Source: a virus. From it: DNA of 63,735 nucleotides. The DNA lies in the IMG/VR virus record IMGVR_UViG_3300045110_000325, positions 1 to 63,735 of that record; one strand, given 5' to 3'. A model generated the notes under the pieces. That model was not told the DNA's origin. It was given only the letters and a program-made list of their open reading frames with translations, and made no database searches. A program made the position numbers and the translations under genes. Within the stretch, counting starts at the first letter, position 1. Each line of letters starts with the position of its first letter. Shown one piece after another: positions 20,128-61,545 of the stretch.

Positions 20128-20526
20128 ATGAGGTCGATGCCGACCAATCCGGCGGCACTCCGCAGGTCGGGCTGGGCGTGCGCCGCGAGCGGGCTGGCGG
20201 TGATGGCGGGCCCTGACGTGGCTCACATCCCTGATCACTGGGCCCGGCTCGGCTTGGTGCTGACGTACGCCGGCCTGTTGGCGTGGGCGACCGCGACGAT
20301 CCTGGCGCATCAGCGCAGGCTGGAGGAGCGGACTCTGGCCAGGGACGCGGAGGCGACCGCCACGCAAGTCCGGACCGGTTTCCAGCTCGGCTGCGCGTCG
20401 ATCCGCGCCGGGGCTGCTGCTCCGGCCGTGTCAGCCGGGTTGTCCGCTGACCGGCGGCGTCCCCGGCTGCGCCTCGTCAGCGACAGGGGAGTTGACGGGG
20501 CCGCCGGGGAGCAGGACTCGGCCTAG
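20128..20526 (+). CDS. Small membrane protein downstream of the repressor
   Basis: A protein of 132 residues from ATG 20128, preceded by GAGGAGG at ideal spacing. Two hydrophobic spans (GLAVMAG region and LVLTYAGLLAWATATIL), then a charged cytoplasmic tail. Its last 96 bp overlap the 3' end of the integrase gene on the other strand. It would be expressed in lysogens with the repressor; role unknown. Confidence 0.45.
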   Translation: MRSMPTNPAALRRSGWACAASGLAVMAGPDVAHIPDHWARLGLVLTYAGLLAWATATILAHQRRLEERTLARDAEATATQVRTGFQLGCASIRAGAAAPAVSAGLSADRRRPRLRLVSDRGVDGAAGEQDSA

Positions 20527-21846
20527 CCGGTCTGGCTCCGCCGGCTTCGCTGGCAGCACCTGCTCGCCCCACGCCTCGAGCGCCTGGCGCTGCGCCGAGT
20601 CGGGCGGGGTGTCGTAGCGGTCAAGCATCGCCCTCTGCGTCCAGCCGGCGATCGCCATCACGGTCCGGTCGGAGACGCCGAGGGCGCGCAGGCCGGTGGC
20701 CATGGTGTGCCGCAGCTCGTGGACGCGGCGGCGCGGCAGCCCGGCCTCGTCGAGGATCGCCTGCCACTCCGCCCAGTCGGCCTTCGCCTCGATCGGTCCG
20801 CCGGCCGGCGTGGTGAACACGAGCCCGCCGAACTCCGCGCCGGGGCCCTGCTTCCCGTTGGAGTCCTGCGGCGGCTGCCGGTCCCGCAGGCCGGCGAGGA
20901 GCACGGCCAGCGCCGGCAGCAGGGGGACGGTCTTGGACCTGTGCGTCTTCACGTCGCCGAGGACCAGCCCGCCCGTGCGGACGCCGGGCGGTGGCCGGCG
21001 CTGGGGGCAGTTCCCGCCGCGTTTGCGCCCGCACGACGGGCCCCGCCCGGGCTGGTCAGCGCCAGGACAGCCGTGCCGCCAGGGCAGCCGCTCCAGGTCG
21101 TGCCGAATCGTCACCGACGCGGCCAGGGGGTCGGCGATGTCCAGGTCGTCCCAGCACAGCCCGAGCGCCTCTCCCTGCCGCAGGCCGAGGAGCATGCCGA
21201 GCAGCCACCGCACGCCGTTGCGCCGGCCAGCCGCTGCGGCGGCGACTTGCCGGGCCTCCGCGGCGGTCAGCGGCTTGACCTCGCGGCGGCGCACCGTCGG
21301 AGGGTCGACGAGGTCGCATGGGTTGCGCACGTTGTGCTTGCGGCCGGCGAGGACGTAGAGCCGCGACAGGATGCGGTGCACGTGCAGCACCGTCTGCGGG
21401 GACAGCGGCCCGCCGTCCTTGCCGCCGTGGTCGAGGAGGTCGGCGTAGAGCCGCTCGACCCGCTGGGGTGTGACCCGGTCCAGCCGCAGCCCGCCGATGT
21501 GGGGCGCGATGTACCGCTCGACCTTCCCCCGGGCGCGCCACACCGTGCCGGGGGCGCGCTGCGAGGCGGGCATGACCACGTCGAGCCAGTGCCTGGCCCA
21601 CGCCTCCACCGTCGGGGGGCGGTCGGACGCGACCGCGCCGGAGTCCTCCATCTCGCGGCGGGCCTTCGCGAGCTTCGCCCGGACCTCGGCCTGGGTCCTG
21701 CCGTAGCGGGTGACCCGCCGCCGCCGGCCGGTGCCGTCGTCCACCGAGAACTGCCCCATGTAGGACCCGCTGGCCTTGTGCCAGCAGACCGTCCCCTCGC
21801 CGCGGGCCCGGCGCGGGCGGTCGCGTCGAGGGGGGTTGCGCGGCAC
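20431..21846 (-). CDS. int: Tyrosine site-specific integrase
   Basis: A protein of 471 residues with all tyrosine-recombinase parts: an N-terminal arm-binding domain (about 15-70), a SAM-like core-binding domain (80-170) and a catalytic domain with Arg223 (GLRQGEALGL), His376/Arg379 (HELRH), Trp402 and the nucleophile Tyr411 (MLDRYDT). An inserted cysteine cluster at about 260-280 (three Cys) is typical of integrases from actinobacterial integrative elements such as pSAM2. It inserts the genome at the tRNA-Arg(CCU) gene whose 3' half lies just upstream. Confidence 0.92.
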   Translation of the reverse strand: MPRNPPRRDRPRRARGEGTVCWHKASGSYMGQFSVDDGTGRRRRVTRYGRTQAEVRAKLAKARREMEDSGAVASDRPPTVEAWARHWLDVVMPASQRAPGTVWRARGKVERYIAPHIGGLRLDRVTPQRVERLYADLLDHGGKDGGPLSPQTVLHVHRILSRLYVLAGRKHNVRNPCDLVDPPTVRRREVKPLTAAEARQVAAAAAGRRNGVRWLLGMLLGLRQGEALGLCWDDLDIADPLAASVTIRHDLERLPWRHGCPGADQPGRGPSCGRKRGGNCPQRRPPPGVRTGGLVLGDVKTHRSKTVPLLPALAVLLAGLRDRQPPQDSNGKQGPGAEFGGLVFTTPAGGPIEAKADWAEWQAILDEAGLPRRRVHELRHTMATGLRALGVSDRTVMAIAGWTQRAMLDRYDTPPDSAQRQALEAWGEQVLPAKPAEPDRLGRVLLPGGPVNSPVADEAQPGTPPVSGQPG

Positions 21847-21865
21847 GTCCCCAAGCCTATCGGAG

Positions 21866-22119
21866 TACTGCCAGACTACTGCCTACAGGATGTCCCGTGC
21901 TGTCGAGCTATGTAGACCTGCGTCGTGCGACACACGGTCTCGCCTGGGCGGTTGTCCCGCAGTGTCCCGCCATGTAGAGTGGCACCCGTACTGGTCGGCG
22001 GTTTCCTAAACCGTGTGTCGGAGGTTCGAATCCTCTCGGGGGCACAACCTCGCTGACCTGCCAGTTCGGCACTCGGCGGCGGGAACCTCGAACAGCCAGG
22101 TACTGCCAAGTCTACTGCC
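21866..22119. other. attP: attP with integrase arm-type sites
   Basis: Non-coding region upstream of int. TACTGCC occurs as two direct pairs, at 21866 and 21877 on one side of the core and at 22101 and 22113 on the other. TGTCCCG recurs three times between 21,890 and 21,970. The paired, symmetrically placed heptamers fit arm-type binding sites of a heterobivalent tyrosine integrase; the tRNA-derived core lies between them. Confidence 0.7.
22003..22044 (+). other. attP core: 3' half of tRNA-Arg(CCU)
   Basis: The anticodon loop TTCCTAA (22003-22009), variable loop GTGTC, T-stem GGAGG/CCTCT around the loop TTCGAAT (22025-22031), 3' acceptor strand CGGGGGC (22037-22043) and discriminator A (22044) match actinobacterial tRNA-Arg(CCU). 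No D-arm or 5' acceptor strand lies upstream, so this is not a functional tRNA gene but the identity segment that restores the host tRNA after integration. Confidence 0.8.
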
Positions 22120-22140
22120 AGAGAGGACGGGCCTCCCCCA

Positions 22141-23239: not shown

Positions 23240-23362
23240 ATTCCGCCGCACATGGAGTAGTGGCACACTGACCAGGACCGCTGACTCAAGGCGGCCGGAG
23301 CCGATGATTCCCGCCACCGGCCCCGGCCTTGCCCGACCCCCGATCCAACCGGGAGACGGACC

Positions 23363-25492
23363 GTGGAGAAACCTACCGACGTAGCGCAGCGCACGTCACC
23401 GCCCGGCCGGCTGATCCAGCTCCGCCGGAAGGCGGAGCCTGAGGTCGCAGAGGCGGCCGAGCTGCCCGCTGTCGCGGACGAGGTCGTCGACGGCGAGCTG
23501 GTCGACGACGGCGAGGGCCGGGACCTGGAGCCGGCGCTCCCTCCGCAGTTCACGGCTCTCCCCGCGCGGCCGATCATCGCGGACTGGCTCCGCTCCAGCG
23601 GGCAGCGCCGGATGGCCGCGAAGTGGGCGCTGCGGTTCGCCGGCCACGTCGTCGCGTTCCACATCGCGCGCCTGCCGTTGTACGCGGGGAAGCTGGCCCT
23701 TTACGCCCCGCGGGGCCTTGCCCGGTCGTCTCTGGCCGCGGCGTGCTGGCTCGCGGACCTGGAGGCCCGGCCGCTGCGGAGGGCGGCCGTGGACAAGGTG
23801 GAGATCGGCGAGTACATCAAGCTCGCGCGGCTGCGGGACGACCGGATACGCGGGCGGCTGATCTGGGCCGGGGTGCTGGCGGTCCCCGTCCTCGTCGTCC
23901 TCGCCGTCGGCTGGTTCTTCTACCGCCCGTACTTCACCGTCGGGCTGGTTGTCGCCGTCGCCATGCTCGGCTGGCTTGGCCGGCGCAGAGACAAGCCGCT
24001 GATCCCCCACGCCGTGATCCCCACGGAGGCGAAGCCGCTGACCGCGGACACGGTGACCGCGGCCCTCGGGTCGCTGGGGATCTCGAAGATAGACCAGGCC
24101 GTCGCCAAGGGGCCGGGGTTGGCGTTCCCCGCGCCGATCTGCCGCGACGGCCCCGGGTGGCGCGCCGACGTGGACCTCCCCCTGGGCGTCACCCCCGGGG
24201 AGGTGATGGAGCGGCGGGAGAAGCTGGCGTCGGGGCTGCGCCGGCCGCTGGGCTGCGTGTGGCCGGGGGCTGATCCGGAGATTCACGAGGGGCGGCTGGT
24301 GCTGTGGGTCGGCGACCAGGACATGTCCAAGATGCGCCAGCCGCCGTGGCCGTTGGCGAAGTCGGGGACGACGGACCTGTTCAAGGAGTTCCCGTTCGGC
24401 ACGGACCAGCGCGGCCGGGACGTGTCGCTGACGTTGATGTTCGCGTCGATGGTGATCGGCTCGGTGCCGCGGATCGGGAAGACGTTCGCGCTGCGGCTGA
24501 TCCTCCTCGCCGCGGCGCTGGACGTGCGCGCGGAGATCCACGCCTTCGACCTGAAGGGCATGGGCGATTTCTCCGCGCTGGAGCCGGTGCTGCACCGCTA
24601 TGGCCGGGGCTGCCGCGACGAGGTGGTCGAGCGGATACGCGCGGACCTGCTGGACGTGCGGGCCGAGCTGACCCGCCGCACCGACGTGGTTGACGCCCTG
24701 CCGCGGGAGATCGCGCCCGAGTCGAAGATCACCCCCGAGTTGGCTTCGCGGCGGCAGCTGCGGCTCCACCCGATCGTGATCGCCATCGACGAGTGCCAAC
24801 TCGCCTTCGACCACCCCGTGTTCGGCGACGAGATCGAGGCGTTGTGCGACGACTTGAACCGCCGCGGCCCGGCGGCCGGGATCATGTTGATCCTCGCCAC
24901 GCAGCGCCCCGACGCGAAGTCGATCCCGTCAGGGGTGAAGGCGAACTCGGTGCTGCGGTTCTGCCTCAAGGTGACCGGCCATTTGGAGAACGACATGGTG
25001 CTCGGGACCGGCGCGTACAAGGCCGGGGTGCGGGCGACGATCTTCTCCCGCCGGGACCTGGGCATCGGGTACCTGGTGGGCGAGGGGGCCGACCCGACGA
25101 TCACCCGCACGTACTACGTCGACAACCCGGGCGCGGAGCGGATCGCGGCGCGGGCGCGGCGGCTGCGGGAGGCCGCGGGCACGCTGTCGGGGCACGCGCT
25201 CGGGGAGGAGCCGGAGACGGGCCCGGTCTGCACGGTCCTCGACCACGTGCGGATGGTGCTCGCGCCGGGGGAGGAGAAGGTTTGGTCGGAGACGCTGCTG
25301 GAGCGGATGCGGGAGCGATGGCCGGAGCGGTACGACGGCTGGTCGACGACGCAGCTGGCACTGGCGCTCAAGCCGTACGACATCGCCACCAAGCAGATCC
25401 CGCGCCGCTTCGGCGAGCGGGTCGTGAACAACCGCGGGGTCGAGACGGCGGACGTTCTGGCCGCCTCGGCGTCGCCGCTCGAAAGGCGCTGA
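23363..25492 (+). CDS. TraB/FtsK-type DNA translocase of AICE type
   Basis: A protein of 709 residues. Two membrane spans (about 167-187 and 190-206) precede a RecA-like motor with Walker A GSVPRIGKT (366-374), Walker B IVIAIDE (471-477) and the FtsK-specific ATQRPD segment (512-517). The last 70 residues resemble the winged-helix end of conjugative TraB/FtsK proteins. Length and architecture fit the single-protein double-stranded DNA transfer motors of Streptomyces plasmids and actinobacterial integrative conjugative elements, not phage packaging motors. A DUF2637 membrane protein 1 kb downstream strengthens the link. It may pass the prophage between hyphae or act in partition; both are inference. 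Confidence 0.75.
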   Translation: MEKPTDVAQRTSPPGRLIQLRRKAEPEVAEAAELPAVADEVVDGELVDDGEGRDLEPALPPQFTALPARPIIADWLRSSGQRRMAAKWALRFAGHVVAFHIARLPLYAGKLALYAPRGLARSSLAAACWLADLEARPLRRAAVDKVEIGEYIKLARLRDDRIRGRLIWAGVLAVPVLVVLAVGWFFYRPYFTVGLVVAVAMLGWLGRRRDKPLIPHAVIPTEAKPLTADTVTAALGSLGISKIDQAVAKGPGLAFPAPICRDGPGWRADVDLPLGVTPGEVMERREKLASGLRRPLGCVWPGADPEIHEGRLVLWVGDQDMSKMRQPPWPLAKSGTTDLFKEFPFGTDQRGRDVSLTLMFASMVIGSVPRIGKTFALRLILLAAALDVRAEIHAFDLKGMGDFSALEPVLHRYGRGCRDEVVERIRADLLDVRAELTRRTDVVDALPREIAPESKITPELASRRQLRLHPIVIAIDECQLAFDHPVFGDEIEALCDDLNRRGPAAGIMLILATQRPDAKSIPSGVKANSVLRFCLKVTGHLENDMVLGTGAYKAGVRATIFSRRDLGIGYLVGEGADPTITRTYYVDNPGAERIAARARRLREAAGTLSGHALGEEPETGPVCTVLDHVRMVLAPGEEKVWSETLLERMRERWPERYDGWSTTQLALALKPYDIATKQIPRRFGERVVNNRGVETADVLAASASPLERR

Positions 25493-25536
25493 CACGCTTA
25501 TCCGCAGGTCAGGAGTCTGTGGATTGATTACTTGGC

Positions 25537-25551
25537 CGCTTACAGTAAGCG
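25537..25551. promoter_or_regulatory. Short palindrome upstream of small basic genes
   Basis: CGCTTAC and GTAAGCG around one base, in the 89-bp gap after the translocase gene. Related decamers CCGCTTACAG and CCGATTACAG are about 21 bp apart. It may be an operator or a stem ahead of the next cistron. Confidence 0.3.
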
Positions 25552-25581
25552 ACCTCGCCGATTACAGAAGGGACCGAAGCC

Positions 25582-25752
25582 ATGGGATTGTTCAGCGACC
25601 GGCGGGAGTACAAGGCCGCGCAAGAGGCGCAGGCGAAGCTGCAGCGGAGCCAGAAGCGGCGCAAGATCCGCGAGGAGACGCCGTCGTACCTGAAGGCGAA
25701 CAAGAGGACGAACGCCGCCGTCAACAAGCTGCCGTGGTGGGCACGGATCTAG
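25582..25752 (+). CDS. Small basic protein (MG-F/L-D type)
   Basis: A protein of 56 residues, strongly basic, beginning MGLFSDRREYKAA. It shares its start and the EYKAA helix with the protein at 28,562-28,729, and the MG(I/L)F start with the next gene. Such peptides could bind nucleic acid. ATG 25582; stop TAG. Confidence 0.45.
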   Translation: MGLFSDRREYKAAQEAQAKLQRSQKRRKIREETPSYLKANKRTNAAVNKLPWWARI

Positions 25753-25766
25753 GGAGGACAGAAGTC

Positions 25767-25919
25767 ATGGGCATCTTCGACGGGGACCCGAGGTACCAGG
25801 AGCTGAAGCGCATCCGCGAGAAGGAGGGCTACAAGGGTTGGTTAGACCAGGACAACAAGAAGGTGTCCGACAAGGACGTGAAGTCGGGCGCGTGGAAGGG
25901 CAAAGGCAAGAAGAAGTGA
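25767..25919 (+). CDS. Small basic protein
   Basis: A protein of 50 residues with an acidic/aromatic start (MGIFDGDPRY) and a lysine-rich tail (GKGKKK). A GGAGG precedes the ATG. Co-translated with the next gene by GTGA. Confidence 0.45.
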   Translation: MGIFDGDPRYQELKRIREKEGYKGWLDQDNKKVSDKDVKSGAWKGKGKKK

Positions 25920-26170
25920 TCATCGCCGCCGCCGCGTCGTCGGGTGTGTCGCCTTGGCATTGGCTGTGGATAGCCGCCGCCATGGCCGCCCTGTACCTCG
26001 TCGGGTGCTGGGTGTACCCGTACGCGCCGTGCCGTGTGTGCATGGGCTCGGGGCAGCGCCGCTCCGGCGGGGTGCTCGGCGAGGGCGGGTCGTGGCGTCG
26101 GTGCTGGCGCTGCGGCGGACGCGGGGAGCGGATCAGGCCCGGCGCGAGACTCCTCGGGAGGGGCAAGTGA
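25916..26170 (+). CDS. Membrane-anchored double zinc-knuckle protein
   Basis: A protein of 84 residues from GTG 25916. One membrane span (about 11-33) is followed by CRVCMGSG and CWRCGGRG, two CxxCxGxG knuckles of the DnaJ zinc-finger kind. Part of the conjugation-like module. Confidence 0.5.
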   Translation: MIIAAAASSGVSPWHWLWIAAAMAALYLVGCWVYPYAPCRVCMGSGQRRSGGVLGEGGSWRRCWRCGGRGERIRPGARLLGRGK

Positions 26171-26436
26171 TCGGCAGAATCGTGCACACGCCGCCAGGCG
26201 GGCACTCGTGCATGCCTGGATGGGAGACCATCCGGACAACCCCCGGATCGCCGGCGCCGTACTCCGCCCACTCCGTCAACACCGGCTGCTTCGCCCCCGA
26301 GGGCAGCGTGTGGGAATGCGAGTGCGCCCGGACGTTCGTCGCGTTCTACGACCGCCGGCATGGCTGCCTGGCCGCGTTCTGGCGGCCGGAGCGGCGCCGC
26401 GAGCGCAAGCGCCGGCTCAAGGCGGCTGCCTCGTGA
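26167..26436 (+). CDS. Hypothetical protein
   Basis: A protein of 89 residues from GTG 26167. It contains a CEC motif (WECECARTFVAFYD) and a strongly basic C-terminus. Overlaps both neighbours by four bases. Unknown function. Confidence 0.45.
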   Translation: MIGRIVHTPPGGHSCMPGWETIRTTPGSPAPYSAHSVNTGCFAPEGSVWECECARTFVAFYDRRHGCLAAFWRPERRRERKRRLKAAAS

Positions 26437-27113
26437 GTGGGCGAGCCTGGGCGTACACCGGCGTCGTCCTCGGCGCGGCGGTGTCGGTCGCGGCGAACGT
26501 CGCCCACTCCTACGTCCCCCCCGAGGACGCGCCGCCTGCCTGGTCTCCGCACGCCGGGGCGGTCGTCGGCGCGGTGTTCTGGCCCGTGGCGCTGCTCGTG
26601 TCGCTGGAGATCCTCGCCCGGGTGGAGTGGCCGTCCGGGTGGCGGTGGACAGCTGTCCGCTACCTCGGACTGATCCCGGTCGGCGTGGTGGCAGCCGTGG
26701 TCAGCTACCGGCACATGTCCGGACTGCTGGAGTGGTACGGCGAGGAGAGCATCACGTGCGACCTCGGGCCGTTGGCGGTGGACGGCCTGATGGTGATGTC
26801 CGCCGGGGCGCTGCTGGCCACGGCTCGGACAGCCCGGGCAGTCGAGGCGGCGGCCGAGGACAGCCCGACCGAGCCGCTGGCGACGGAGCCCGCCGAGACC
26901 GTGAAGCCGCAGGTCGTGCTTGACCTCGTGGCGACCCTGGACCGCCTCGGCGTGCCACCTGGCACCGGCCGGGAGAAGTCCCGACAGGAGCTCGCGAAGG
27001 TCGGCCGGCGGGCGTCGACGGGCGACCTGTCCGAGGCTGTCCGGCTGCGGAAGACAGGTGACCGTGCCAAGGTCAACGGCGTGGACCGAGAACTGGAGAG
27101 GGCAGGGACATGA
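26433..27113 (+). CDS. DUF2637 (Spd-like) membrane protein
   Basis: A protein of 226 residues. Four hydrophobic spans in the first 130 residues, with the DUF2637 pattern (AAVSVAANVAHSYVPP, GAVFWPVALLVSLEILARV, RYLGLIPVGVVAAVVSYRHM, LAVDGLMVMSAGALLA). The C-terminal 90 residues are charged and cytoplasmic. DUF2637 proteins accompany FtsK-type translocases in actinobacterial plasmids and integrative elements and are thought to help intramycelial spread. Here they sit in the same plus-strand run. Confidence 0.7.
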   Translation: MSGRAWAYTGVVLGAAVSVAANVAHSYVPPEDAPPAWSPHAGAVVGAVFWPVALLVSLEILARVEWPSGWRWTAVRYLGLIPVGVVAAVVSYRHMSGLLEWYGEESITCDLGPLAVDGLMVMSAGALLATARTARAVEAAAEDSPTEPLATEPAETVKPQVVLDLVATLDRLGVPPGTGREKSRQELAKVGRRASTGDLSEAVRLRKTGDRAKVNGVDRELERAGT

Positions 27114-27718: not shown

Positions 27719-27751
27719 CCCCCTCGCGTCGTTGTGTAGTGCGCTTGACAA

Positions 27752-27961: not shown

Positions 27962-27996
27962 GCCAAGAGTGTAGGCCGAGCCCCTTGACATTGCCA

Positions 27997-34345: not shown

Positions 34346-34864
34346 TCAGCTTCCCAACAGCCGGGTCATGATCCCGACGATCTCCTCGCCGTAAGTCGGC
34401 GACGGCGCCCACAACCCACCCAACTGCTCAACGGTCGGCGCGGAGCCGAACCGCGGCCCGCCCGGCCAGACGTAGACCGCGCGGGGGTCGGGGGAGTCGT
34501 CCGGCGAGTCGTAGCCGGCGGGGACGCGGCCGGCGTAGAGGGACAGGTGGTCGGCGTGGGCGCGCGCGCCGGTCGCCATGTCGGGGAACAACGCGTGGTC
34601 GGCTGTCGTGTCGCCGGTCGGGTTGCGCACCTTGAGGCCGCACGGGTTGTTCATCGACGGGGTGACCGCGCCGCCGAAGCGCCCCCAGCCGGTTTCCTTC
34701 GCGCATTGCGCGACCAGGACCACCGGGTCGACGCCGACGGCCAGGCCGGCAGCGGCGAGGTGCGGCAGCGCGCTGAAGAACCACGGCGAGGCGGTCGCTG
34801 GTATGTCCTCGTAGTGGATGACGTGGGCCGGCCCCGCAAGGAGGATCGAAACCGGCCGAGTCAG
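34346..34864 (-). CDS. Glucosaminidase-type lysin (GH73-like)
   Basis: A protein of 172 residues. LVAQCAKETGWGRFGG (with the catalytic Glu), MNNPCGLKV, FPDMATGARAHADHLSLYAG and WAPSPTYG match endo-beta-N-acetylglucosaminidase-like lysins. The frame is continuous up to the amidase stop, and HVIHYEDIPATASPWFFSAL belongs to the domain, so the gene must start upstream of the first internal ATG. The only overlap of the kind used in this genome is CTGA at 34,864, implying a rare CTG start. It cuts the glycan strand during lysis. Confidence 0.65.
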   Translation of the reverse strand: MTRPVSILLAGPAHVIHYEDIPATASPWFFSALPHLAAAGLAVGVDPVVLVAQCAKETGWGRFGGAVTPSMNNPCGLKVRNPTGDTTADHALFPDMATGARAHADHLSLYAGRVPAGYDSPDDSPDPRAVYVWPGGPRFGSAPTVEQLGGLWAPSPTYGEEIVGIMTRLLGS

Positions 34865-35721
34865 TTTCCCGGGCTCGCCGGAAGCGCGGCCTTGATCTCA
34901 GTGACGGTGGCAAGGATCAGCGTGAGCGCGTCTTCCATCGCGGCGACGCGCTCGGCCAACACGGCCTGCGACTCGCCGAACTTGACGACCATGCCGCTCA
35001 ACGCGTCGGCCTTCCGGGACGCGGCGTGGGAGTTGCTCGCGGCCCACTCGGCGAGGTCGCCCATTCGGACCGCAGTGTGCCCCAACTCGGTCCTGGCCCC
35101 GGTGCCCAGCTCCTCCTCGCGGTTCCACACGTCGTTCGCGTCAGGCATGTCGGCGACCTCCAGGATCACGATCGGGGGGGCTTCGGCGGCGACCAGCGGC
35201 AGCGCCGCGCGGAGCACGGGGCCGGGGCATTCGGTGTCGCCGAAGATGGAGTGGGGGACCACGCGGGTCGCGCCCGGCGTCCGGCTGAGCGCCTTGGCCC
35301 GACACCAGCGCATCCCCTCCACCAGCGCCGGCGTGACCTGGCCGTCGTCGTTGCCGAAGACGACGAGGACGGCGTACCACTCGTCGTTCTCGCTGCCGGC
35401 GAGGTTCGGGTTGTCCTGCCCGGCGGAGCGCCGGTCGAAGGTGCGGCAGGGGTAGACGTGCGCCTGGCCGGCCACGTCGGCGACGGCCCACTGGTAGGCG
35501 ATGTCGCAGTACCCGCGGCCGCCTTCGGACCGGGGGTTCATGTGGTCGTCCTGCCAGCCCCGCAGCCTCGAGCAGACCTGCGCCTCGGTGAGGCCGAGGA
35601 GCGTCCCGGCGCTGCCGGGGTGGTGGTAGACGACGCCCCTGATCCCGGACGTGGCCATGGCGGCGCATCCCGTGCCGGCGCGGCTGGTCCAGTCGGAGCG
35701 GGTGTGAACGACGACGGTCAT
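34861..35721 (-). CDS. N-acetylmuramoyl-L-alanine amidase endolysin
   Basis: A protein of 286 residues. Residues 1-185 are an amidase_2/PGRP domain: VVYHHPGS gives the first zinc His, CDIAYQWAV and YPCRTFDRR follow, and VVPHSIFGDTECPGP supplies the last ligands. Residues 200-286 form an alpha-helical C-terminal segment with coiled-coil character, probably for binding or multimerising. It cleaves the amide bond between peptide and sugar in the host wall. Overlaps the glucosaminidase gene. Confidence 0.85.
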   Translation of the reverse strand: MTVVVHTRSDWTSRAGTGCAAMATSGIRGVVYHHPGSAGTLLGLTEAQVCSRLRGWQDDHMNPRSEGGRGYCDIAYQWAVADVAGQAHVYPCRTFDRRSAGQDNPNLAGSENDEWYAVLVVFGNDDGQVTPALVEGMRWCRAKALSRTPGATRVVPHSIFGDTECPGPVLRAALPLVAAEAPPIVILEVADMPDANDVWNREEELGTGARTELGHTAVRMGDLAEWAASNSHAASRKADALSGMVVKFGESQAVLAERVAAMEDALTLILATVTEIKAALPASPGN

Positions 35722-38193: not shown

Positions 38194-39462
38194 TTATATC
38201 GCTAACGCGTTCTGGCCGAGGACGCCCAGCGTGGACGAGCCCAAGACGAACCCGCCCCACTTCGTCGCGGACTGCAGCGTGAACGTCACCCGCCACCGGG
38301 CGGGGCTCGCCGACCACTCGTGCTCGACGCCTCGGATGAACACGTCCCGTTGGATCGCCGATCCTGTCGGCGGGCGGCGGATGATCGTGATCCGATCCCC
38401 GATCTCCCGGGACAGCACCGCGGGCCACAGGTTGTCCGGGTCGCGCAGCGGCTCCACGGACAGCGCCGCGAACCGGTACTCCGGATCTTTCGACTGCGAC
38501 ACGACCCAGTTCGCGTAGGACAACGCCACCGAGTCCGTCTGCATGATCAGGTCGGACCGGTCGAACGAGCGGGTCAAGTTCGCGGTCTTGCTCGCCACGT
38601 CCTGCGCGACCTGCTCCGTCCCGCCGACCCGAGTCACCCTGGCGACGTTCACCAACTGCTCGTCGTCGTATTCCGGGACCACGTCCTGGTACTTCAACTC
38701 CCCCGCGTTGTCCCCGAAGGTCGCCTGGGAGGTCGCCGACCGCGCGTCGGTGAAGATCGCCTGCCGGTTGCGGAAGAACGCGCGCCCGCCGGAGTCGATG
38801 TAGAACTCCCCGAGTTCCGTGTCCGCCGTGAGTTGCAGCTCCTGCAGAGCGTTGCCCTCCAGCGTGGTCGCCTGCACCGTCGTGTTCCCGGTGGCCACCA
38901 ACCGGTCCTCGCTCGGCCAGTCCGCTGAGTTGAGAATCCGGTCGACCCGAGTGCCCGAGTCCTCGCCGGCTCCAACCGCGGCCCCGGCGGCGCGGTCCAC
39001 CTGCCCGAGCACCTTGAACCCGTCGGTGGCGGCGACCGTCGTCTCCGCGTACCGGGGCTTGGTGTATTCCGTGGTCCACGAGTCCGCGAAACCCCGCCAA
39101 ATGTTGTAGGTGACGCCGGCCCACGTCGCCCGCAGCCGCACCACCCTCATCGGGCGGACCTGCGTCACCCCGCCCGACACGTACGGCCCGGCCAGGTTCG
39201 ACGCGTCGAACCTGCGGTCGTCGTCGCGGAGCACCAACGACGCGTTGCCCGCGCCGTAGGAGACCACCGGGGACGACACCCGGTCGGAGCCGCGCCGGGT
39301 CGTGAAAGACCGCAGCCACGGGGTCACATCCGTGTACGCCTGGCCGTCACCAAGCGTGCCCGTGCCGAGGAGTCCCCGCGCCGAGTCGCCCAAGTGCAGC
39401 AACGTCCCCGACGACGCGCCGATCCCGAACCCGACCTCAGCGATGATCGTCGGCTGCTGCAT
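38194..39462 (-). CDS. Minor tail protein (distal tail/baseplate)
   Basis: A protein of 422 residues directly downstream of the tape measure (TGATG junction). It begins with a dit-like beta domain (TDVTPWLRSFTTRRGSDRV, RRFDASN, RVVRLRATW) and continues with hub-like segments (FFRNRQAIF, YSYAN-type strands, DRITIIRRPP). Position and layout fit the actinophage minor tail protein that forms the tail tip and contacts the cell. Confidence 0.7.
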   Translation of the reverse strand: MQQPTIIAEVGFGIGASSGTLLHLGDSARGLLGTGTLGDGQAYTDVTPWLRSFTTRRGSDRVSSPVVSYGAGNASLVLRDDDRRFDASNLAGPYVSGGVTQVRPMRVVRLRATWAGVTYNIWRGFADSWTTEYTKPRYAETTVAATDGFKVLGQVDRAAGAAVGAGEDSGTRVDRILNSADWPSEDRLVATGNTTVQATTLEGNALQELQLTADTELGEFYIDSGGRAFFRNRQAIFTDARSATSQATFGDNAGELKYQDVVPEYDDEQLVNVARVTRVGGTEQVAQDVASKTANLTRSFDRSDLIMQTDSVALSYANWVVSQSKDPEYRFAALSVEPLRDPDNLWPAVLSREIGDRITIIRRPPTGSAIQRDVFIRGVEHEWSASPARWRVTFTLQSATKWGGFVLGSSTLGVLGQNALAI

Positions 39463-42400
39463 CAGGGGCGGATCTTCAGCCGAATGCCGCCGTTGCTCCT
39501 CGCGTACGCCTGCAGCTCGTCGACGAGCTGCTTGACGTTCTGCACGCCATGCAGAACCAAGTCGCCGTGGACGACGACGCCTCCGCCCCCGCTTCTCGGC
39601 ACCACCGTCTCGCCCGCCTGGAAACCGTAGGTCCGCCCCGAGCGGCCGACGCCCATGATGTCCTCGGTGATCGGCCCCCCGCCGTGGTACCAGTGCGGGG
39701 AGCGCGACGACCACTTGGCGTACGCGTTGACCGGGTTTCCATACGAGCCCTTGATGTAACGGCCGGTGTACACAGCCTGCAGATACGGGTCGAAAGTCTT
39801 GTGGCCGCCCACTGTGGCCCAAGTGCTGTCCAGGAACTGGCCAATTCCGAGCGCGGAGCTTGTCGGGTTTTGGGCGGTGTTGCGGAAACCGGACTCGCCC
39901 ATGAGCAGCCTGTACGCGGCGTTCCACTGACCACCCGACCAGCCGAACATGCTCGCGAAGACCTGCTTCACCAACGCGGCGTTGCCTGACACGTTCGACT
40001 GCGCGCCCAGAGTCGCCGCGCCATCGCCGCCAGCACCCCCAGCGCTGCCGAGTGCCTTCTGCAGGCGGTCCGGCAGGTCGGACAACGCCCGCACGATGCC
40101 CTGGTACGGCTGGCCGGAGACGACCAGCGGGACCGTCGCCGACGGCCGCACCGGGCCGCCGCGAGCATAACCCCCGGCCAGCACGGCCTTGCGCATCCGC
40201 CGCACGGACTGATGGCCGCCAGCGGCCCGCACCTCCTTGGCGGTCCACATGTGCTCACCGGCGCTGGCCCAGATCGGCACGTCATCCGACGTGCCCGTCC
40301 CCGGGCCAGTGATCGCCCCGCCGGCCGCCTTCTTGCGGCCCGCCATGGCAAGCTCCTGCTTCACCAGGGACGTGGCCTGCGCCTTGGAGATGTGCGCCGA
40401 CTTCCACACGTGGTCGATGCGGGCATTGAGATTGTCGAAGCCGTGGATGGCGTCCTTCAACCCAGGCGTCGACACCTTGACCTTCAGGTCAGACGGGACC
40501 TTGAACATCTGCTCAAGCAGCTTGTGCGTCTCCGTCTTCGAGTACCCGGCCTGGATCGCCTGGTTCTCCAGATCCTTCTTCTGCTGCCGGAGGCTCGCGT
40601 TCACCACGTCAACGGACTTGCCGGCCGCCCTGTCGGCTTTCGCCTTCGCGTAGGCGGCGTCGACCGCGGACTGGAAAGCCGCGACGTTCTCCCGGCCCGC
40701 CGCGGTCATGATGTTCAACGAGTGCGACCCGACCTCGCCGGCCCGTTTCTGCGCCGCCGCGACGTTGCGCGCCGCGTCCGCGACCGCCCTAGCCGTGTCC
40801 TGCTGCGCCTTCGCGATGCCGCGCTGCGCCTCGGCGACCGCCCTCGCCGAGTCCTCATGAGCCTTCGTCAACGCCACCCGGGCGTCACGCGCGGCCCCGT
40901 CCGCGGACGTGACCGCTTTCTGCGCGGCGACCACCGCCGGGGTGGCGTTGACGCCCTCGCGCTCCACCTTGTTGCTCTCCCGCACCGCCTGGGCGCGTTC
41001 CCGCTGCGCGTCGGAAAGGCTGTCCTGCGCCAGCGCCAACGCCAAGATGGCCTCGCGGCGGTCCAAATCCGTCGACTTGGCGTCCTTGTTGACCTCCTTC
41101 AGCCGCTGCTGCGCGCGCAGCACCTGCAGAGTCGCCCCCTCCTCTGCGAGCAGAGCGTCGTCGACGGTCTCCTTCAAGTCCCGGAGCTGGCCGGCGGCGT
41201 CCCTGCGGGCCTGCGTCAAAGACCGCTGCGCCTCCCGCTGCCGGTCCTGCGCGCCGGTCAACGCCTCCTCCGCGGACCGCACCGACTCCGCGCCCGCCTT
41301 GTACGCGTCGCCCAGGGCGCGCTGCGCCGATGTGATCTGCTCCGCGCCCGAGGACTGCGCGTCCGCCAACGCCCGCTGCGCGTCGCCCACCTCCCGAGAA
41401 GCGTCAGCCGCCTCCCGGGACCGGTCGCCGAGCTGATGCAACGCCGCGTTCCACGCCGAAGTCGAGGACACCGCGTCCCGACCAGTCGAGGCGATCAGAT
41501 CCAGCCCCGACGCGTAGGCGCCAGCCGCCTGCTGGTTGTCCAGCAACACGCGAAGGCTCTTGTCGACAGCAGGGGTCAAGCCGAGGCCCAGCGCCTCCGC
41601 CGCGGCCTTCGCCTTCTGCGCGGTCTCGTCGAGTTTTCCGCTCAGGTTGCCGGCCGCGTCGGCGTGGGCGTTGGTCGCGCCCGCCGCGACCTTGTCGACC
41701 TCCGCCTTCTCCCGGGTCTTGTCCAACGCCTTGCCCGTCGCCTCAGACTCGCCGTGGATGCCCTCCTTCACCGCGTTCAACGCGTCCAGGCGCTCGCTGC
41801 TGACCTGCCCCGTCAACTGCAAGTGCGCCTGCTCCTGGCGGATCTGCTCGTCGATGATCCCGGTGACGCGCTTGCGCGCGTCGCCCTCGTTCAGGGTGGC
41901 GGCCAGGACATCCTTCGCCGCGATCCCGAACTGCGCCGCACGCTGGATGACCTTGTCCTGCGCGAGCGCCTGCGCCACGTACTCGCGGGTCGTCCCGCCG
42001 ATCGCGCCGCCGTCCTGCTCGATGGCGGCCGTCAGCGAGTCGATGTGGTCCTTGGCACGCTTCGACGCCGCCGCGAACAGGCCGACCCCGGCGGTCGCGC
42101 CCACAAGCGCGACACCCCACGGCCCGCCGAGGAACCCGGCCAGGCCGCCAGCGGCCCCGCGCAACTTGCCGACCGAGCTGGCCGCCGAGCCCATCGCGAA
42201 CTTGCCGCTCGCGGTCTGGGCGGCGACACCGGCCGTGGCGATCCCCGCCGCGGCCGCCTCCGCGTCCGCGCCGACGACCAGCAACGCCTTGCCCGTGCGC
42301 AAGCTGCTGATGCCCAACTGGTCCATCGCCGTGCGGACCGCGCCCACGCCCTTGCCCGCGACAACCAAGCCGACCAAGCCGAGGACAGCAGCCTTCGCGA

Positions 42401-43538
42401 CATCGTTGGACGCGATCGTGGCTATGCCCTTCGCGACCGCCTGAATCGCCGGAGCCGCGTCGACAAACGCCTTCGTCAGCTGCAGCTGGACGGGGAGCAG
42501 GCCAGCGCCAAGCTCCGCCTTGGCGTTCTCGAACTCGGCGGTGGCGATCCGCTGCTGGTTGGCGAGGCCGCCGGACGTGCGCGCGAAGTCGCCAGCCGCC
42601 GCGCCCGTCTGCTTCAAGATCAAGCCGTACGTGGCCTGCGCCTTGATCGCCGGGGTGATGTCGGCCTTGGTCTTCGCCAGGCCAGACCGCAGCGCCTCCT
42701 GCTCGACGGCGGCGGCGGTGATCGCGAACCCGAACCGCTGCAGCGGGTCGAACTCGCCGGCCAGCGCGGACTGCAACGCCCCGAGCATCTCCTCCGGCGA
42801 CGCGTTGTTGAAGCTCGCCAGGTCGCCCGCGGTCTTGACGAGCTGGATCGACATCTTCGCCGAAGCCTTGTCCGTCAACCCCAGGTTGTGGAACAAATTG
42901 CCAAAGTTGCCCGCCGCGGTGAGCGCCTGGTTCTGCGACTGGCCCAGCGACTTCGCCGCGGACTTGCCGAAGGCGATCACCGCGGTCGCCGAGTCACCGA
43001 AGACCACCCGGGTCTTGGAGGTGGTCTCGTTCAAATCGGACGCGGCCTTGATCGACTCGCCGCTGAGCTGGGCCATCTTGCGGAGCGCGCCGACCGCGAC
43101 GACCCCCGCGCCAAGCTTCCAAGCGGCGCCCGTGAGCGTGGCCGCCTTTGACTGCCTGTCACCCAGGTCGCTGACCGTCAAAGCGGCGCGTTTCTGCTCG
43201 CCGGTGAGCTTCGACTGGGCGGCCAGGGTGTCCCGGCTGGACGACGCGACGCCGCGCTGCGCCTTCGCCAACTGCTCCTCAGCGGCGACCAGCTGCGATG
43301 TCTTCGCCTTGCCTGACCCGCGCAGGTCCGCGAGTTTCGCCTCCGCGGCCCGCACGCGGCCGGACGCGTCCTTCTCCCGGTCCTGCGCCTTCGCCAGGTC
43401 CAAGGTGGCGGCCTCGAGCGCCTCCACCGACGTGGCCGCCGTCTTCGCCGCTCCGCCGAGCGTTTTGAGGTCTCTGGCCCCCGACGCCGCGCCATCGACC
43501 TCAAGGAGGAGCTGCAGCTTCTCGGTTGTCGTCCCCAC
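39462..43538 (-). CDS. Tape measure protein with lytic transglycosylase domain
   Basis: A protein of 1358 residues. Long coiled-coil runs with ADAQRALADAQ-type repeats, hydrophobic segments (GLVGLVVAGKGVG, VALVGATAGVGLFAAA) and a C-terminal soluble lytic transglycosylase domain (GESGFRNTAQNPTSSALGIGQF, with the catalytic Glu). It sets tail length; at about 1.5 Angstrom per residue the tail would be near 200 nm. The transglycosylase helps pass the cell wall during DNA entry. The largest gene in the window. Confidence 0.93.
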   Translation of the reverse strand: MGTTTEKLQLLLEVDGAASGARDLKTLGGAAKTAATSVEALEAATLDLAKAQDREKDASGRVRAAEAKLADLRGSGKAKTSQLVAAEEQLAKAQRGVASSSRDTLAAQSKLTGEQKRAALTVSDLGDRQSKAATLTGAAWKLGAGVVAVGALRKMAQLSGESIKAASDLNETTSKTRVVFGDSATAVIAFGKSAAKSLGQSQNQALTAAGNFGNLFHNLGLTDKASAKMSIQLVKTAGDLASFNNASPEEMLGALQSALAGEFDPLQRFGFAITAAAVEQEALRSGLAKTKADITPAIKAQATYGLILKQTGAAAGDFARTSGGLANQQRIATAEFENAKAELGAGLLPVQLQLTKAFVDAAPAIQAVAKGIATIASNDVAKAAVLGLVGLVVAGKGVGAVRTAMDQLGISSLRTGKALLVVGADAEAAAAGIATAGVAAQTASGKFAMGSAASSVGKLRGAAGGLAGFLGGPWGVALVGATAGVGLFAAASKRAKDHIDSLTAAIEQDGGAIGGTTREYVAQALAQDKVIQRAAQFGIAAKDVLAATLNEGDARKRVTGIIDEQIRQEQAHLQLTGQVSSERLDALNAVKEGIHGESEATGKALDKTREKAEVDKVAAGATNAHADAAGNLSGKLDETAQKAKAAAEALGLGLTPAVDKSLRVLLDNQQAAGAYASGLDLIASTGRDAVSSTSAWNAALHQLGDRSREAADASREVGDAQRALADAQSSGAEQITSAQRALGDAYKAGAESVRSAEEALTGAQDRQREAQRSLTQARRDAAGQLRDLKETVDDALLAEEGATLQVLRAQQRLKEVNKDAKSTDLDRREAILALALAQDSLSDAQRERAQAVRESNKVEREGVNATPAVVAAQKAVTSADGAARDARVALTKAHEDSARAVAEAQRGIAKAQQDTARAVADAARNVAAAQKRAGEVGSHSLNIMTAAGRENVAAFQSAVDAAYAKAKADRAAGKSVDVVNASLRQQKKDLENQAIQAGYSKTETHKLLEQMFKVPSDLKVKVSTPGLKDAIHGFDNLNARIDHVWKSAHISKAQATSLVKQELAMAGRKKAAGGAITGPGTGTSDDVPIWASAGEHMWTAKEVRAAGGHQSVRRMRKAVLAGGYARGGPVRPSATVPLVVSGQPYQGIVRALSDLPDRLQKALGSAGGAGGDGAATLGAQSNVSGNAALVKQVFASMFGWSGGQWNAAYRLLMGESGFRNTAQNPTSSALGIGQFLDSTWATVGGHKTFDPYLQAVYTGRYIKGSYGNPVNAYAKWSSRSPHWYHGGGPITEDIMGVGRSGRTYGFQAGETVVPRSGGGGVVVHGDLVLHGVQNVKQLVDELQAYARSNGGIRLKIRP

Positions 43539-57842: not shown

Positions 57843-59279
57843 TCAAAAGGCTGGCGTTACCAGACCTGTGCCGCTAACCGACTGAAATGCGGAGCTATAA
57901 CGCCGAAAACTGTAGGCGTAGTAACCGTACAAGACCATCAAAATACCCAGAGTCGCCGCTGCGGCCTGTTCCGCCCTAATGAAGACAGGGGCGTTGGGAT
58001 CTTCCCAAAGGTGGCACTCGGCGTCGGCGACGACGTAGATGGCGTCTTCGTTGCTGCCGGTGCCGGCGTTGGTCACGATGTTGTTGTCGACGACGACGAG
58101 GGTCCCGTTGGGCAGCACGCCGCGGATGCCCTTGTTGTAGCCGGCGCCGTAGTTCGCGCCGCCGGTCTGGCCCTGCGGCACGATTCCGGGCTGGTTGATG
58201 AACGGCCACGTGCTGACGAGCTGGCTGCTCATCCAGTGCCACCGACGGGAGTGCATGACGGCGTGGGATGGGATGGCCTGCGCGAGCAGAGCCGCCTCCG
58301 CGCCTGCGATCGCGCCGAGGATCTTCGGGTACAGGCCGGCGGCGGTCGGCGCGGTGGCGGTGTACGCCACGTCCACGGACACCGCCTCCAGGCCGGTGGT
58401 GGCCTGGTTGATCAGGTTGGCGTCGAGCGCCGTGGCGTACCGGCGGAACAGGTCGTTCATGAGCACGTCGTCGACGCCGGTGCCGCGTTCGATGGCCTGC
58501 CGGGACACGGTCTGCTGGCCGGCGGCAGTCTGGATGTTCTCGGTGAGCAGGGTGTCGTCGGCGTTGGTCTCCTGGACGGCGGTGTTCTCCGCGGTCTGCA
58601 ACGCCACGCCGGTGGAGGTGGTGATCCGGGAGATGTTGACGGTCATGCCGTCCGGCGGCAAGTCGTGCTTGTTGCAGATGTCCGCGAACGGCCGCAGCGC
58701 GGCGGTCGCCGGGGCGTACATGTCGGTCAGGTACTGCGGGACGACGAGGCCGGTGAAGGCCCCGGTGCCGACAGCGCGGGTCAGGTACTCGGCCCGCTCC
58801 ACCCGCTCCTCGGCCATGTGCTGGCTGAGGCGAGTTCCGGCTTGCACATCGTTGAACAGGAACTGCCGGACCACGTCCCACAGGAACTGGGTGCCGCGCT
58901 TGTCGGTGTCGGGGCGGTAGGTCCGCTCCTCCCGGCCCACCCGCGCCACCCGGTCGTACGACGGCTTGGACGCCGCCTTCGCCGCCGCGGGCGTGGGCTT
59001 GACCTCCCGCGCCGCGTCGTCAGCGGCGCGCTCCTCGGTCTTGACGCGCTCCGCGTTCTCCAACTTCGTCTGGATGCCGCGGATGTCGGCCTTCGCCTGG
59101 TCGCGCTCGGCGAACAGTTGGGCGGTGGTGGCGTCCTCCTCCTGGGTCAGGTTCGCGCGGCCCTCCTGCGCGGCCTGCGCCAGGATCGTCTTCACCTGGT
59201 GGATGGTCTTGTCGCGGCGCTTCTTGGCCGCTTCGAGCTCGACTTCGATGCCCGCGATGATGTCGTCGATGGTCGCCAT
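57843..59279 (-). CDS. Major capsid protein (HK97 fold) with N-terminal scaffold
   Basis: A protein of 478 residues. Residues 1-110 form a charged coiled coil, the delta-domain scaffold removed by the protease. The rest (GAFTGLVVPQYLTDMYAPAT, GVALQTAENTAVQETN, IPSHAVMHSRRWHWM) follows HK97-type capsid proteins. Located directly after the protease gene. Confidence 0.88.
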   Translation of the reverse strand: MATIDDIIAGIEVELEAAKKRRDKTIHQVKTILAQAAQEGRANLTQEEDATTAQLFAERDQAKADIRGIQTKLENAERVKTEERAADDAAREVKPTPAAAKAASKPSYDRVARVGREERTYRPDTDKRGTQFLWDVVRQFLFNDVQAGTRLSQHMAEERVERAEYLTRAVGTGAFTGLVVPQYLTDMYAPATAALRPFADICNKHDLPPDGMTVNISRITTSTGVALQTAENTAVQETNADDTLLTENIQTAAGQQTVSRQAIERGTGVDDVLMNDLFRRYATALDANLINQATTGLEAVSVDVAYTATAPTAAGLYPKILGAIAGAEAALLAQAIPSHAVMHSRRWHWMSSQLVSTWPFINQPGIVPQGQTGGANYGAGYNKGIRGVLPNGTLVVVDNNIVTNAGTGSNEDAIYVVADAECHLWEDPNAPVFIRAEQAAAATLGILMVLYGYYAYSFRRYSSAFQSVSGTGLVTPAF

Positions 59280-59423: not shown

Positions 59424-60263
59424 TCACTCTTCGTCGCTGAGCAGCAGGGTGCTGATCAGCGCCACGGACCGGCCCGTGCTGGCCGGTGACGCCGCGCGGG
59501 TCTGACCGCCCGCGCGCGCGACCCCGCCGTGAGAGGCGGGGAGGTCTGTCCGCAGCGACAACCGGTCCAACGCGGCCCGGGCCGCGCCGGCCGGCAGGTG
59601 CTCGAGGTCGGCGAGGATCTCCCGCGACCGGGCCGCGATGGAGGTGTAGGGGTTCGCGCCGTAGTTCACGGCCGACACGTCGCCGCGGTTGATGTCCACC
59701 TTCGAGATCTTGAAGGTGGAGAAGTCGTCGGACCACCAGCCCTCTTCGAGCATGAACGCGAAGCTCATCTCGGTGATGTTCTTGTCGTCGACGGCGACCA
59801 CGAGATCGGACACGTCCTGGCGTTTCGGGTTCAGCCAGGCGTCGGAGCCCAGGCCCTCGTCGACCATGCCGAGGTCGAGGGTCCCGTTCGTGGTCCGGGC
59901 CATGGTCACGCCGCGGTGGTTGACCAGGAACGCCACGTCGGGCTCGGCCGCCAGCGTGTCATCGAACGCGGAGTGCTCCACGATCTCCTCGTACGGGCCG
60001 AACATGTCCCACATCTCGTACGGGGTGTCCGTCACAGACGCGATGCCGTTGAGGTGGTACAGCTCCTGGCCGTTGCGCTTCTCCAGCTTCGCCCGCAACT
60101 GCGCCGGGAACGCCAGCGAGCGGGCTCCCCCGACGCCGCGAGGCGACTCCTGGCACCGTTGCGAGCGCCCGCCCTGCGTGGAAAGCGCCTCGGCTCTCCG
60201 CTCGGCCGCCGCCTGGCGTTCAGGGGTCATCCCGGCTGCGCCCTTCATATCGGACCTGTCCAT
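59424..60263 (-). CDS. Prohead protease (HK97 family)
   Basis: A protein of 279 residues. YHLNGIASVTDTPYEM, FLVNHRG (catalytic His), LEEGWWSDDFSTFKISKVDINRGDVSAV (with Ser/Asp region) match the U35-type prohead protease. ATG 60263 follows the portal stop. The 144 bp after it, before the capsid gene, show no clear signal. Confidence 0.8.
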   Translation of the reverse strand: MDRSDMKGAAGMTPERQAAAERRAEALSTQGGRSQRCQESPRGVGGARSLAFPAQLRAKLEKRNGQELYHLNGIASVTDTPYEMWDMFGPYEEIVEHSAFDDTLAAEPDVAFLVNHRGVTMARTTNGTLDLGMVDEGLGSDAWLNPKRQDVSDLVVAVDDKNITEMSFAFMLEEGWWSDDFSTFKISKVDINRGDVSAVNYGANPYTSIAARSREILADLEHLPAGAARAALDRLSLRTDLPASHGGVARAGGQTRAASPASTGRSVALISTLLLSDEE

Positions 60264-60264
60264 C

Positions 60265-61545
60265 TCAGACCACCTTCGCCACTGGCGCAGCCGGGAAGTT
60301 CGGCCCCGGGACCGGCAGATTCCCACCTGCCTCGTTGACGATCTCCCGCGCCTCGTCCGATGTGATCACCTTGCCGACGCCGAGGTAGATCTTCTGAATC
60401 GTCTCAGCGATGTCCCGGTTGGTTCCGAACAGCTTCTCGAACTCCTTCACCTGCTCATCCGTCAGCGGTGGCAGGTTGTCCAGCTCCCGCGCCTCGGACG
60501 GGGCGCGCTGCCGAGATGTGATCTGCAATGCGAGCATCTCCGCGCGGGTCTTCGGGTCCATCCGCAGCAGCGCGTCGGTGTTCAGCTTCACGAACCGCGG
60601 CCGGGACAGCAGGCTCGACAGCGCCCGCTCCCGGCGGACCACCGCTGGGCCGATGTTGTGGATCAGCAGCTGCAAGTTGCGCTGCACGATGTTCGCGTAG
60701 GTGACCGACGAGCCGGACACCGCCGCGTCGATCACGTCGCCGGGGCAGTCGAAGAACCGGGCGATGTCGTTGACGCCGTAGCGCTTGGCCTCGATCCAGT
60801 CCGCGCCGGCCTGCGCCGCGCCCATCATCTCGTACTCCCAGTCGCCGCCGAGGACGAGCACGCCGCCGTGCTGCATCGACGCCTGGTGGCGCTGCTGCAA
60901 CGTCGCGGCCTGCTCGTTCGTCAGCTCCTGCGTCTTGTTCCGCAGCAGCGCCTTCGGCACGCCGCCGCCGGAGAACCACGACAGCGCGAAGTCCTGGATG
61001 GACAGGTACTCGCCGATCGACCATGCCGCGTGCGCCACCGGCGAGAGCCCCACATGCAGGCCGCTCTTGGTGTACTGCCGCTCGTGCCACACCTCCGACG
61101 GGTCGTACTCCTTCCCGCCGATCCGGTAGTGGTCCAGGCTGCCGGCCTTGACCCTGACCGACACACTCGACACCGGCTGCAGGTCGATGCGGGCCGGCAG
61201 GCCGCGGCCGTCCGTCTCGGTGATCAGGCCGAAGGTGTTCCCCGTCTCGTCGAGGTCGAACTGCGACGAGAACAGCCACTCGAGGATGTCGACACGCTCG
61301 CCGCCAGGGTTGACCAGGACCGGCGGCTTCGGAACCTCGACCTGCACGCCCTGCACCCGCCGGTAGGCGTCGACCGGCATCGTGGAAATCAAGTTCGCCC
61401 GCAGCCGCAGGCACGCCCACACCGCCGAGTGGCGAAGCGCCGTGTCCGCGTTCACCGCGACGATGCCGGCCATCTGCGTGGGCCGTTGCGCCATCAGCTC
61501 CGTCGCCGTCGCCCCGGCCCAGTCCCGTTTGGAGAACAGGCTCAC
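60265..61545 (-). CDS. Portal protein
   Basis: A protein of 426 residues from GTG 61545 (GTGA overlap). ALRHSAVWACLRLRANLISTMPVDAYR and GVNDIARFFDCPGDVI are hallmarks of HK97-type portals. It forms the dodecameric channel for packaging and ejection. Confidence 0.9.
   Translation of the reverse strand: MSLFSKRDWAGATATELMAQRPTQMAGIVAVNADTALRHSAVWACLRLRANLISTMPVDAYRRVQGVQVEVPKPPVLVNPGGERVDILEWLFSSQFDLDETGNTFGLITETDGRGLPARIDLQPVSSVSVRVKAGSLDHYRIGGKEYDPSEVWHERQYTKSGLHVGLSPVAHAAWSIGEYLSIQDFALSWFSGGGVPKALLRNKTQELTNEQAATLQQRHQASMQHGGVLVLGGDWEYEMMGAAQAGADWIEAKRYGVNDIARFFDCPGDVIDAAVSGSSVTYANIVQRNLQLLIHNIGPAVVRRERALSSLLSRPRFVKLNTDALLRMDPKTRAEMLALQITSRQRAPSEARELDNLPPLTDEQVKEFEKLFGTNRDIAETIQKIYLGVGKVITSDEAREIVNEAGGNLPVPGPNFPAAPVAKVV

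Follow-up and report, generated by a model that had tools for sequence, protein, structure and literature searches.

A probable conjugative-element-type DNA transfer module with a candidate DNA target in an actinobacterial phage genome

The window analysed here is a virus record of IMG/VR (IMGVR_UViG_3300045110_000325; 63,735 bp), which looks like a complete genome of an actinobacterial phage. Between its attachment site and its lysis region it encodes a TraB-type DNA translocase, of the FtsK/SpoIIIE superfamily, followed by a series of small proteins. From the sequence comparisons described below, the best reading is that the phage acquired a transfer module of the type carried by actinobacterial integrative and conjugative elements (AICEs) and plasmids, and that it may spread by cell contact beside its virions; we assign this reading a probability of about 0.6. 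The acquired module would comprise the TraB-like double-stranded DNA translocase, a cis site behind its gene, a membrane zinc-ribbon partner and a DUF2637-like membrane protein. Tra/TraB proteins of Streptomyces and of AICEs move double-stranded DNA, need no type IV secretion system and recognise clt (PMC3218068, PMC3583192). From the homology with these proteins, we infer that the translocase would assemble in the hyphal membrane and that its C-terminal winged-helix domain would bind the cis array on phage DNA that is circular in the cell, either excised or plasmid-like. The double-stranded phage DNA could then be pumped into a neighbouring hypha or across septa and, after arrival, be integrated at tRNA-Arg(CCT) by the phage integrase. 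The phage would have two routes of spread, one by virions and one by cell contact.

The translocase and its relatives

The preliminary description of this DNA had named a 709-residue TraB/FtsK-like motor, and the open reading frame (ORF), the motifs, the profile match and the structural model all agree with it. The Walker A motif is GSVPRIGKT (residues 366–374) and the Walker B motif is IVIAIDEC (471–478). The protein matches phrog_1358, 'FtsK/SpoIIIE-like' (5.9e-25), and no Pfam match was found for it. An AlphaFold2 model from a 42-sequence alignment (mean pLDDT 83) contains a disordered start, long N-terminal helices (79–206) and an FtsK-type motor; together with the hydrophobic segment at 162–189, the helices correspond to the N-terminal membrane segment of TraB-type proteins. 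The C-terminal domain (625–694) is predicted to have the order helix-helix-helix-strand-strand, of the winged-helix type. The best fold matches of the model in the PDB were the FtsK motors 6t8b and 2iut, followed by the conjugation coupling protein TcpA of pCW3. In a profile comparison the translocase matched the experimentally studied TraB of pSVH1 with a probability of 99.95% (E 7e-38, 28% identity, 369 columns).

The translocase matched 44 plasmids, the best being an 18-kb circular AICE-like element (52% identity) and the second pPaSha2 of Pseudonocardia alni. A profile scan gave 54 loci in IMG/VR and 485 in genomes; 80 of the latter were kept. These 80 are mostly classic AICEs with DUF2637, an RRQRL zinc protein, the translocase, Prim-Pol, a primase and an integrase. 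Among 50 IMG/VR records with translocase relatives, a portal match was present in 22 and an HK97 capsid match in 25, and Prim-Pol in only 5. The ORFs from these loci were taken from stop to stop, and their N-terminal lengths are approximate. One of the loci (L108, NZ_JALJRY010000011.1) is a chromosomal prophage of a cultured strain, Streptomyces sp. STR69, in which the translocase and a palindrome array stand beside the genes for the terminase large subunit (TerL) and the portal.

A tree was built from 355 motor columns and 101 rows. In the tree, as in the neighbour and cis-site counts given below, the label 'phage' mixes portal or capsid matches with TerL or tape-measure matches, without CheckV verification. 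The phylogeny had been proposed as a check, with a position among chromosomal FtsK proteins as the refuting outcome. The result was the opposite one: the translocase grouped with the AICE and plasmid TraB proteins, and chromosomal FtsK (from E. coli and three actinobacteria) split from this group at 100/100. The window protein lies in a clade of 16 phage or viral rows (96/80) nested inside the AICE TraB-type family. pPaSha2 and several other phages are placed elsewhere among the AICEs, and long branches (pSVH1, some phages) are insecurely placed. The AICE label needs seven changes on this tree, at least four of which are forced by well-supported branches. Within the phage clade the motor has a median dN/dS of 0.20, and this purifying selection argues that the translocase is used.

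The second refuting condition of the preliminary description, a conserved virion-linked gene in related phages, applies in part: other phages do have the translocase, but it is missing from close relatives by virion genes. None of the 17 capsid relatives (51–74% identity, full-length matches), including contigs of 40–77 kb, had a translocase, although these records may be incomplete. A repeat search with positive controls gave a signal in the window and in three translocase phages, and none in six capsid relatives. Two phages with closely related virions (L015 and L020) do carry a translocase, near TerL. Because the capsid relatives lack it, we regard the translocase as an accessory module in this virion lineage.

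A candidate cis site and partner genes

The 8-bp clt-like repeats for which a search had been suggested did not appear as such, and the pSVH1 8-mer GACCCGGA showed no clustering in the window. The same scan recovered the known pSVH1 clt, a GACCCGGA cluster directly behind traB. A clt-like candidate was found by comparing the equivalent flank, 3' of the translocase, across the relatives, the position that the clt holds in pSVH1. In AICEs and phages this flank contains palindromes of the GCTAGnnCTAGC kind, frequently as a pair spaced by 22 bp, as well as more half-sites and a CTGACCTGC/GCAGGTCAG core. CTAG occurs 0.09–0.14 times per 150 bp genome-wide and 2.2 (phages) and 5.0 times (AICEs) in the flank. 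In the first 200 bp behind the translocase, CTAG-type palindromes reach 60 times (phage/viral) and 163 times (AICE) their density in the rest of the loci. The core, written as CTGABCWG, was found in 25 of 35 phage flanks and 50 of 78 AICE flanks, against 0.06–0.07 expected per flank. The summed autocorrelation at 22 bp was clear in the AICEs (z 3.0) and weak in the phages (z 1.3), because the phage half-sites and spacing vary.

In the window, the 89-bp gap behind the translocase gene has the layout ACGCTTATCC-GCAGGTCAG-...-CGCTTACAGTAAGCG-...-CCGATTACAG, with its own half-site in an arrangement as in the relatives. The core GCAGGTCAG is at 25504–25512, the palindrome CGCTTACAGTAAGCG at 25537–25551, and the half-sites are ACGCTTATC (25494–25502) and CCGATTACAG; TRF reported a period of 22 at 25535–25575. 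Since the whole 63.7 kb holds only four copies of GCAGGTCAG (either strand) and 20 perfect palindromes (arm ≥7, spacer ≤1), the presence of both in the gap is unlikely by chance (rough product ~1e-4, independence assumed). The gap is a candidate DNA target, clt-like by its position and architecture. In pPaSha2 and four other loci (L024, L026, L029 and L052) the zinc gene is directly 3' of the translocase and the array lies behind the zinc gene, which argues against a mere operator of the zinc-gene promoter. The half-sites differ by element (GCTAG, GCTAC, TTCCGC, GTCGCG, GGTAACG). The GCAGGTCAG core hardly changes in most phages, and the AICE cores are more variable. The pattern, seen in translocase flanks such as those of L010, L020, L026, L072, L127 and L003, is as if a common factor read the core and an element-specific factor read the half-sites.

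Small basic and zinc proteins had been placed between the motor and the membrane protein, and they are present there as separate genes (Table 1). Among them, the zinc-ribbon protein is a conserved partner: iterated hidden Markov models (HMMs) placed it no more than 4 kb from the translocase, in the same orientation, in 34 of 40 phage and 68 of 79 genome loci, and the alignment, with one transmembrane helix and four cysteines, is convincing. A family of small membrane zinc-ribbon proteins (relatives in L002–L140) immediately follows the AICE-type translocases of most AICE and phage loci. DUF2637-like proteins were near the translocase in 26/40 phage and 71/79 genome loci, counts that may include HMM drift. 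Prim-Pol was near it in 2/40 phage vs 59/79 genome loci, and the RRQRL protein in 0/40 vs 36/79. The designation of the last gene as a DUF2637 protein is weak, and 'Spd-like' is not supported. The encoded protein has three hydrophobic segments, and its relatives in L046 and L050 pass the DUF2637 cutoff (37.6 and 39.0 bits), but no similarity to SpdB2 of pSVH1 was detectable by BLASTP, and when the profile of the window-type group was compared with that of AICE DUF2637 proteins, the probability was only 10%.

A wider proposal is offered tentatively, at less than even odds. AICEs and a broad set of uncultured actinophages may share one modular contact-transfer system, made of the pump, its zinc-ribbon partner and a cis site in which the GCAGGTCAG core is invariant and the palindromic half-sites are specific to each element, and it would be a second, virion-independent route for the phages. 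Matching half-sites might allow mutual mobilisation within one exchange network, and the array might be the missing clt of this AICE group.

Genome context and alternative explanations

Table 1. Positions of the features discussed, in window coordinates
Feature	Position	Strand	Basis
Tyrosine integrase, 471 aa, HGC...CGRK...CPQR cysteine insert	20431..21846	-	Pfam PF00589 7.8e-12; phrog_1 2.3e-50
attP core, 41-bp 3' half of tRNA-Arg(CCT), single copy	22005..22045	+	one match in window
TraB-type membrane DNA translocase, 709 aa	23363..25492	+	intact ORF, best coding score of region
Candidate clt-like cis site	25493..25581 (89-bp gap)	+	architecture common to AICE and phage translocase 3' flanks
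Small basic protein, 56 aa, MGLF-type	25582..25752	+	gene call and HMM; relatives near translocase in a few phages and plasmid L006
Small basic protein, 50 aa, MGIF-type	25767..25919	+	gene call and HMM; relatives near translocase in 8 phage loci
Membrane and zinc-ribbon (CxxCxG..CxxCxG) protein, 84 aa	25916..26170	+	conserved translocase partner; aligned transmembrane segment and 4 Cys
Small Cys-containing protein, 89 aa	26167..26436	+	ORF
DUF2637-like protein, 226 aa, three hydrophobic segments	26433..27113	+	Pfam 19.1 bits vs cutoff 22.8
Endolysin	34861..35721	-	phrog_1493 5.9e-8
Tail tape measure protein	39462..43538	-	phrog_7025 8e-48
Major capsid protein	57843..59279	-	phrog_2263 3.8e-47
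Head maturation protease	59424..60263	-	phrog_7053 1.1e-25
Portal protein	60265..61545	-	phrog_12 2.2e-57
Terminase large subunit	61723..63285	-	phrog_9 1.9e-43

The module had been described as standing right after attP in a genome with a full virion gene set, and both parts are borne out. The translocase ORF is 1.3 kb from the single attP core, and PHROGs identified the virion and lysis genes of Table 1, together with a RecT-like annealing protein and a helicase. The window has every gene by which a temperate phage of the Caudoviricetes is recognised, i.e., TerL, portal, HK97-type capsid, tape measure, lysin and integrase. The attP core matches two Micromonospora genomes with three mismatches, and ARAGORN placed a tRNA-Arg(cct) overlapping two of the three sites. 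Such a tRNA attachment site is also a feature of AICEs. The cysteine insert of the integrase, said to be that of AICEs, is indeed common to most of the compared AICE integrases; it is also present in one compared phage integrase (L050). AICEs are further defined by Int, Tra and Rep (RepSA, RepAM or Prim-Pol) in one element with int at one end; the window has Int and Tra, but searches with tblastn and HMMs found no Prim-Pol or YfjI in it, RepSA and RepAM not having been searched separately.

Several other features of the window were noted. A GIY-YIG endonuclease with a C-terminal helix-turn-helix (27985–28542) lies beside the transfer module. A scan of the whole window for repeats gave only in-gene coding repeats, at 14313–14634 inside the ORF 13663–14871 (- strand), where 26.8 copies of a 12-bp tandem repeat encode QL-rich repeats in frame. 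Three similar proteins (RSWPA..PEGRSYV..DD..EWDIA) are encoded on the - strand within 4.5 kb, between the tail/head genes and the capsid gene (52534–53055, 55948–56457 and 56499–57044). Possible glycosyltransferase-, epimerase- and methyltransferase-like ORFs, judged by their N-terminal sequence only, are in the virion region (- strand; 45190–46221, 54456–55352 and 55349–55882).

Several results weigh against contact transfer by an acquired AICE-type module. No translocase homologue was found by tblastn at 1e-5 in 50,697 cultured phage records. The C-terminal domain, which would bind the DNA, falls outside the hhalign match to pSVH1 TraB, and pairwise dN/dS values with the window protein are about 0.5, on divergent pairs. 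The DUF2637 match is below the Pfam cutoff, and the DUF2637/Spd identity is marginal. For the cis site, an unbiased exact-repeat scan of 21850–28100 gave nothing above chance, and the window holds only one perfect palindrome with diverged half-sites. The palindromes could be repressor operators. In partial Mantel tests, array similarity correlated positively with the C-terminal DNA-binding domain (partial r 0.44), but the correlation with the N-terminal domain was at least as high (0.46).

With these points in mind, four other explanations were weighed. The module may serve the phage inside its own host, where it would move or distribute phage DNA within the multigenomic mycelium and over septa or into spores, for maintenance or spreading and with no transfer from donor to recipient. 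The same genes would suit either purpose; the spd functions of Streptomyces plasmids concern intramycelial spread and stability (PMC4170104); and phage-plasmid forms exist as circular Pseudonocardia replicons. On the other hand, transfer between hyphae is, in the plasmids studied, the task of the TraB-type protein itself (PMC3218068, PMC3583192), and the module is linked to integrases, whereas an integrated prophage needs no partition. We regard a purely intra-host role as unlikely.

It is more doubtful still that the module is a decaying moron, captured from an AICE and functionless in the phage. Its accessory nature, the diverged array of the window and the weak DUF2637 match would fit such decay, but the ORF and the Walker motifs are intact in the phage rows examined. 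Besides the purifying selection in the phage clade, the zinc partner and the cis array are kept across many phages. Very improbable is an FtsK-like motor of the virion cycle unrelated to conjugation, acting in packaging, concatemer or dimer processing or superinfection effects. Other phages, large Bacillus phages and an M. abscessus prophage among them, do have distant FtsK-like genes, and PHROGs files phrog_1358 under moron, auxiliary metabolic gene and host takeover. Against this, the protein groups with AICE translocases and has a helical hydrophobic N-terminus, its module and the virion genes are transcribed in opposite directions, a TerL is already encoded by the phage, and virion relatives do without the translocase. 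Finally, AICEs and phages use common tRNA sites and the order integrase-att-translocase would fit a tandem array, but a prophage with an AICE integrated alongside in one tRNA gene, or a chimeric contig, is the explanation we credit least, as the att core occurs once, no second integrase separates it from the virion genes, these genes continue on the far side, and the combination recurs on two circular replicons and many contigs.

Comparison with known systems

The preliminary description considered the genome a possible phage/conjugative-element hybrid. The AICE-type partners, the clt-like site and the recurrent pairing with virion genes favour this view, and its novelty is reduced by precedent, because the idea of two routes is already known from the conjugating plasmid-phages pZL12 and pFP4 of Streptomyces. 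Apparently new, as far as the accessible literature shows, are the occurrence of an AICE-type module in integrative phages, the recurrence of this module and the shared array, although a subscription paper could have reported them. What is added is that many integrative actinophages have an AICE-type transfer module whose candidate DNA target is conserved. According to a published survey, the model AICE pSAM2 has no described clt motif (PMC9513070), and the shared array offers an exact sequence for tests in both AICEs and phages. If contact transfer is true, these phages would spread without lysis, overlooked by standard phage surveys, and the line between prophages and conjugative elements would be blurred in antibiotic-producing bacteria.

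The closest likeness is to Prim-Pol/YfjI-type AICEs (PMC3218068), such as the circular NBC_00562 element (NZ_CP107792.1). Its translocase is 52% identical to that of the window, and it has a DUF2637 neighbour, a zinc-ribbon protein just behind the translocase, a 22-bp palindrome array and a tyrosine integrase. AICEs differ in having no virion genes and in carrying Prim-Pol/primase and often the RRQRL zinc protein, which the window lacks. The small plasmid pSVH1 (12.7 kb) has a homologous motor, with direct and inverted repeats directly behind the gene at a spacing of 21–32 bp; its repeat sequence GACCCGGA is different, its SpdB2 is unrelated by BLASTP, and it has no virion genes.

Terminase, portal or protease and capsid genes are combined with the translocase on two circular Pseudonocardia replicons. 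pPaSha2 (CP052773.1, 42 kb) has terminase, portal, protease and capsid genes, and DUF2637 adjoins its translocase, which is 47% identical to that of the window. P. broussonetiae unnamed3 (NZ_CP053567.1, 27 kb) has virion genes, the translocase and DUF2637, plus Prim-Pol, and its translocase forms a separate deep branch in the tree. Both differ from the window in phage lineage and gene order, and both are listed as plasmids. pZL12/PhiZL12 is a plasmid-phage according to the title of Zhong 2010, cited in PMC5431353 and PMC4487206, and to PMC3583192, where its transfer is said to need tra and two adjacent genes, which differs from the module described here. Its gp20, the candidate tra product, gave no match to the translocase, and the pZL12 record was among the 50,697 records without a tblastn match. 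pFP4 is described in PMC4170104 as a Streptomyces plasmid-phage that conjugates and forms virions. The window resembles pZL12 and pFP4 in uniting virion genes and a probable transfer module in one element.

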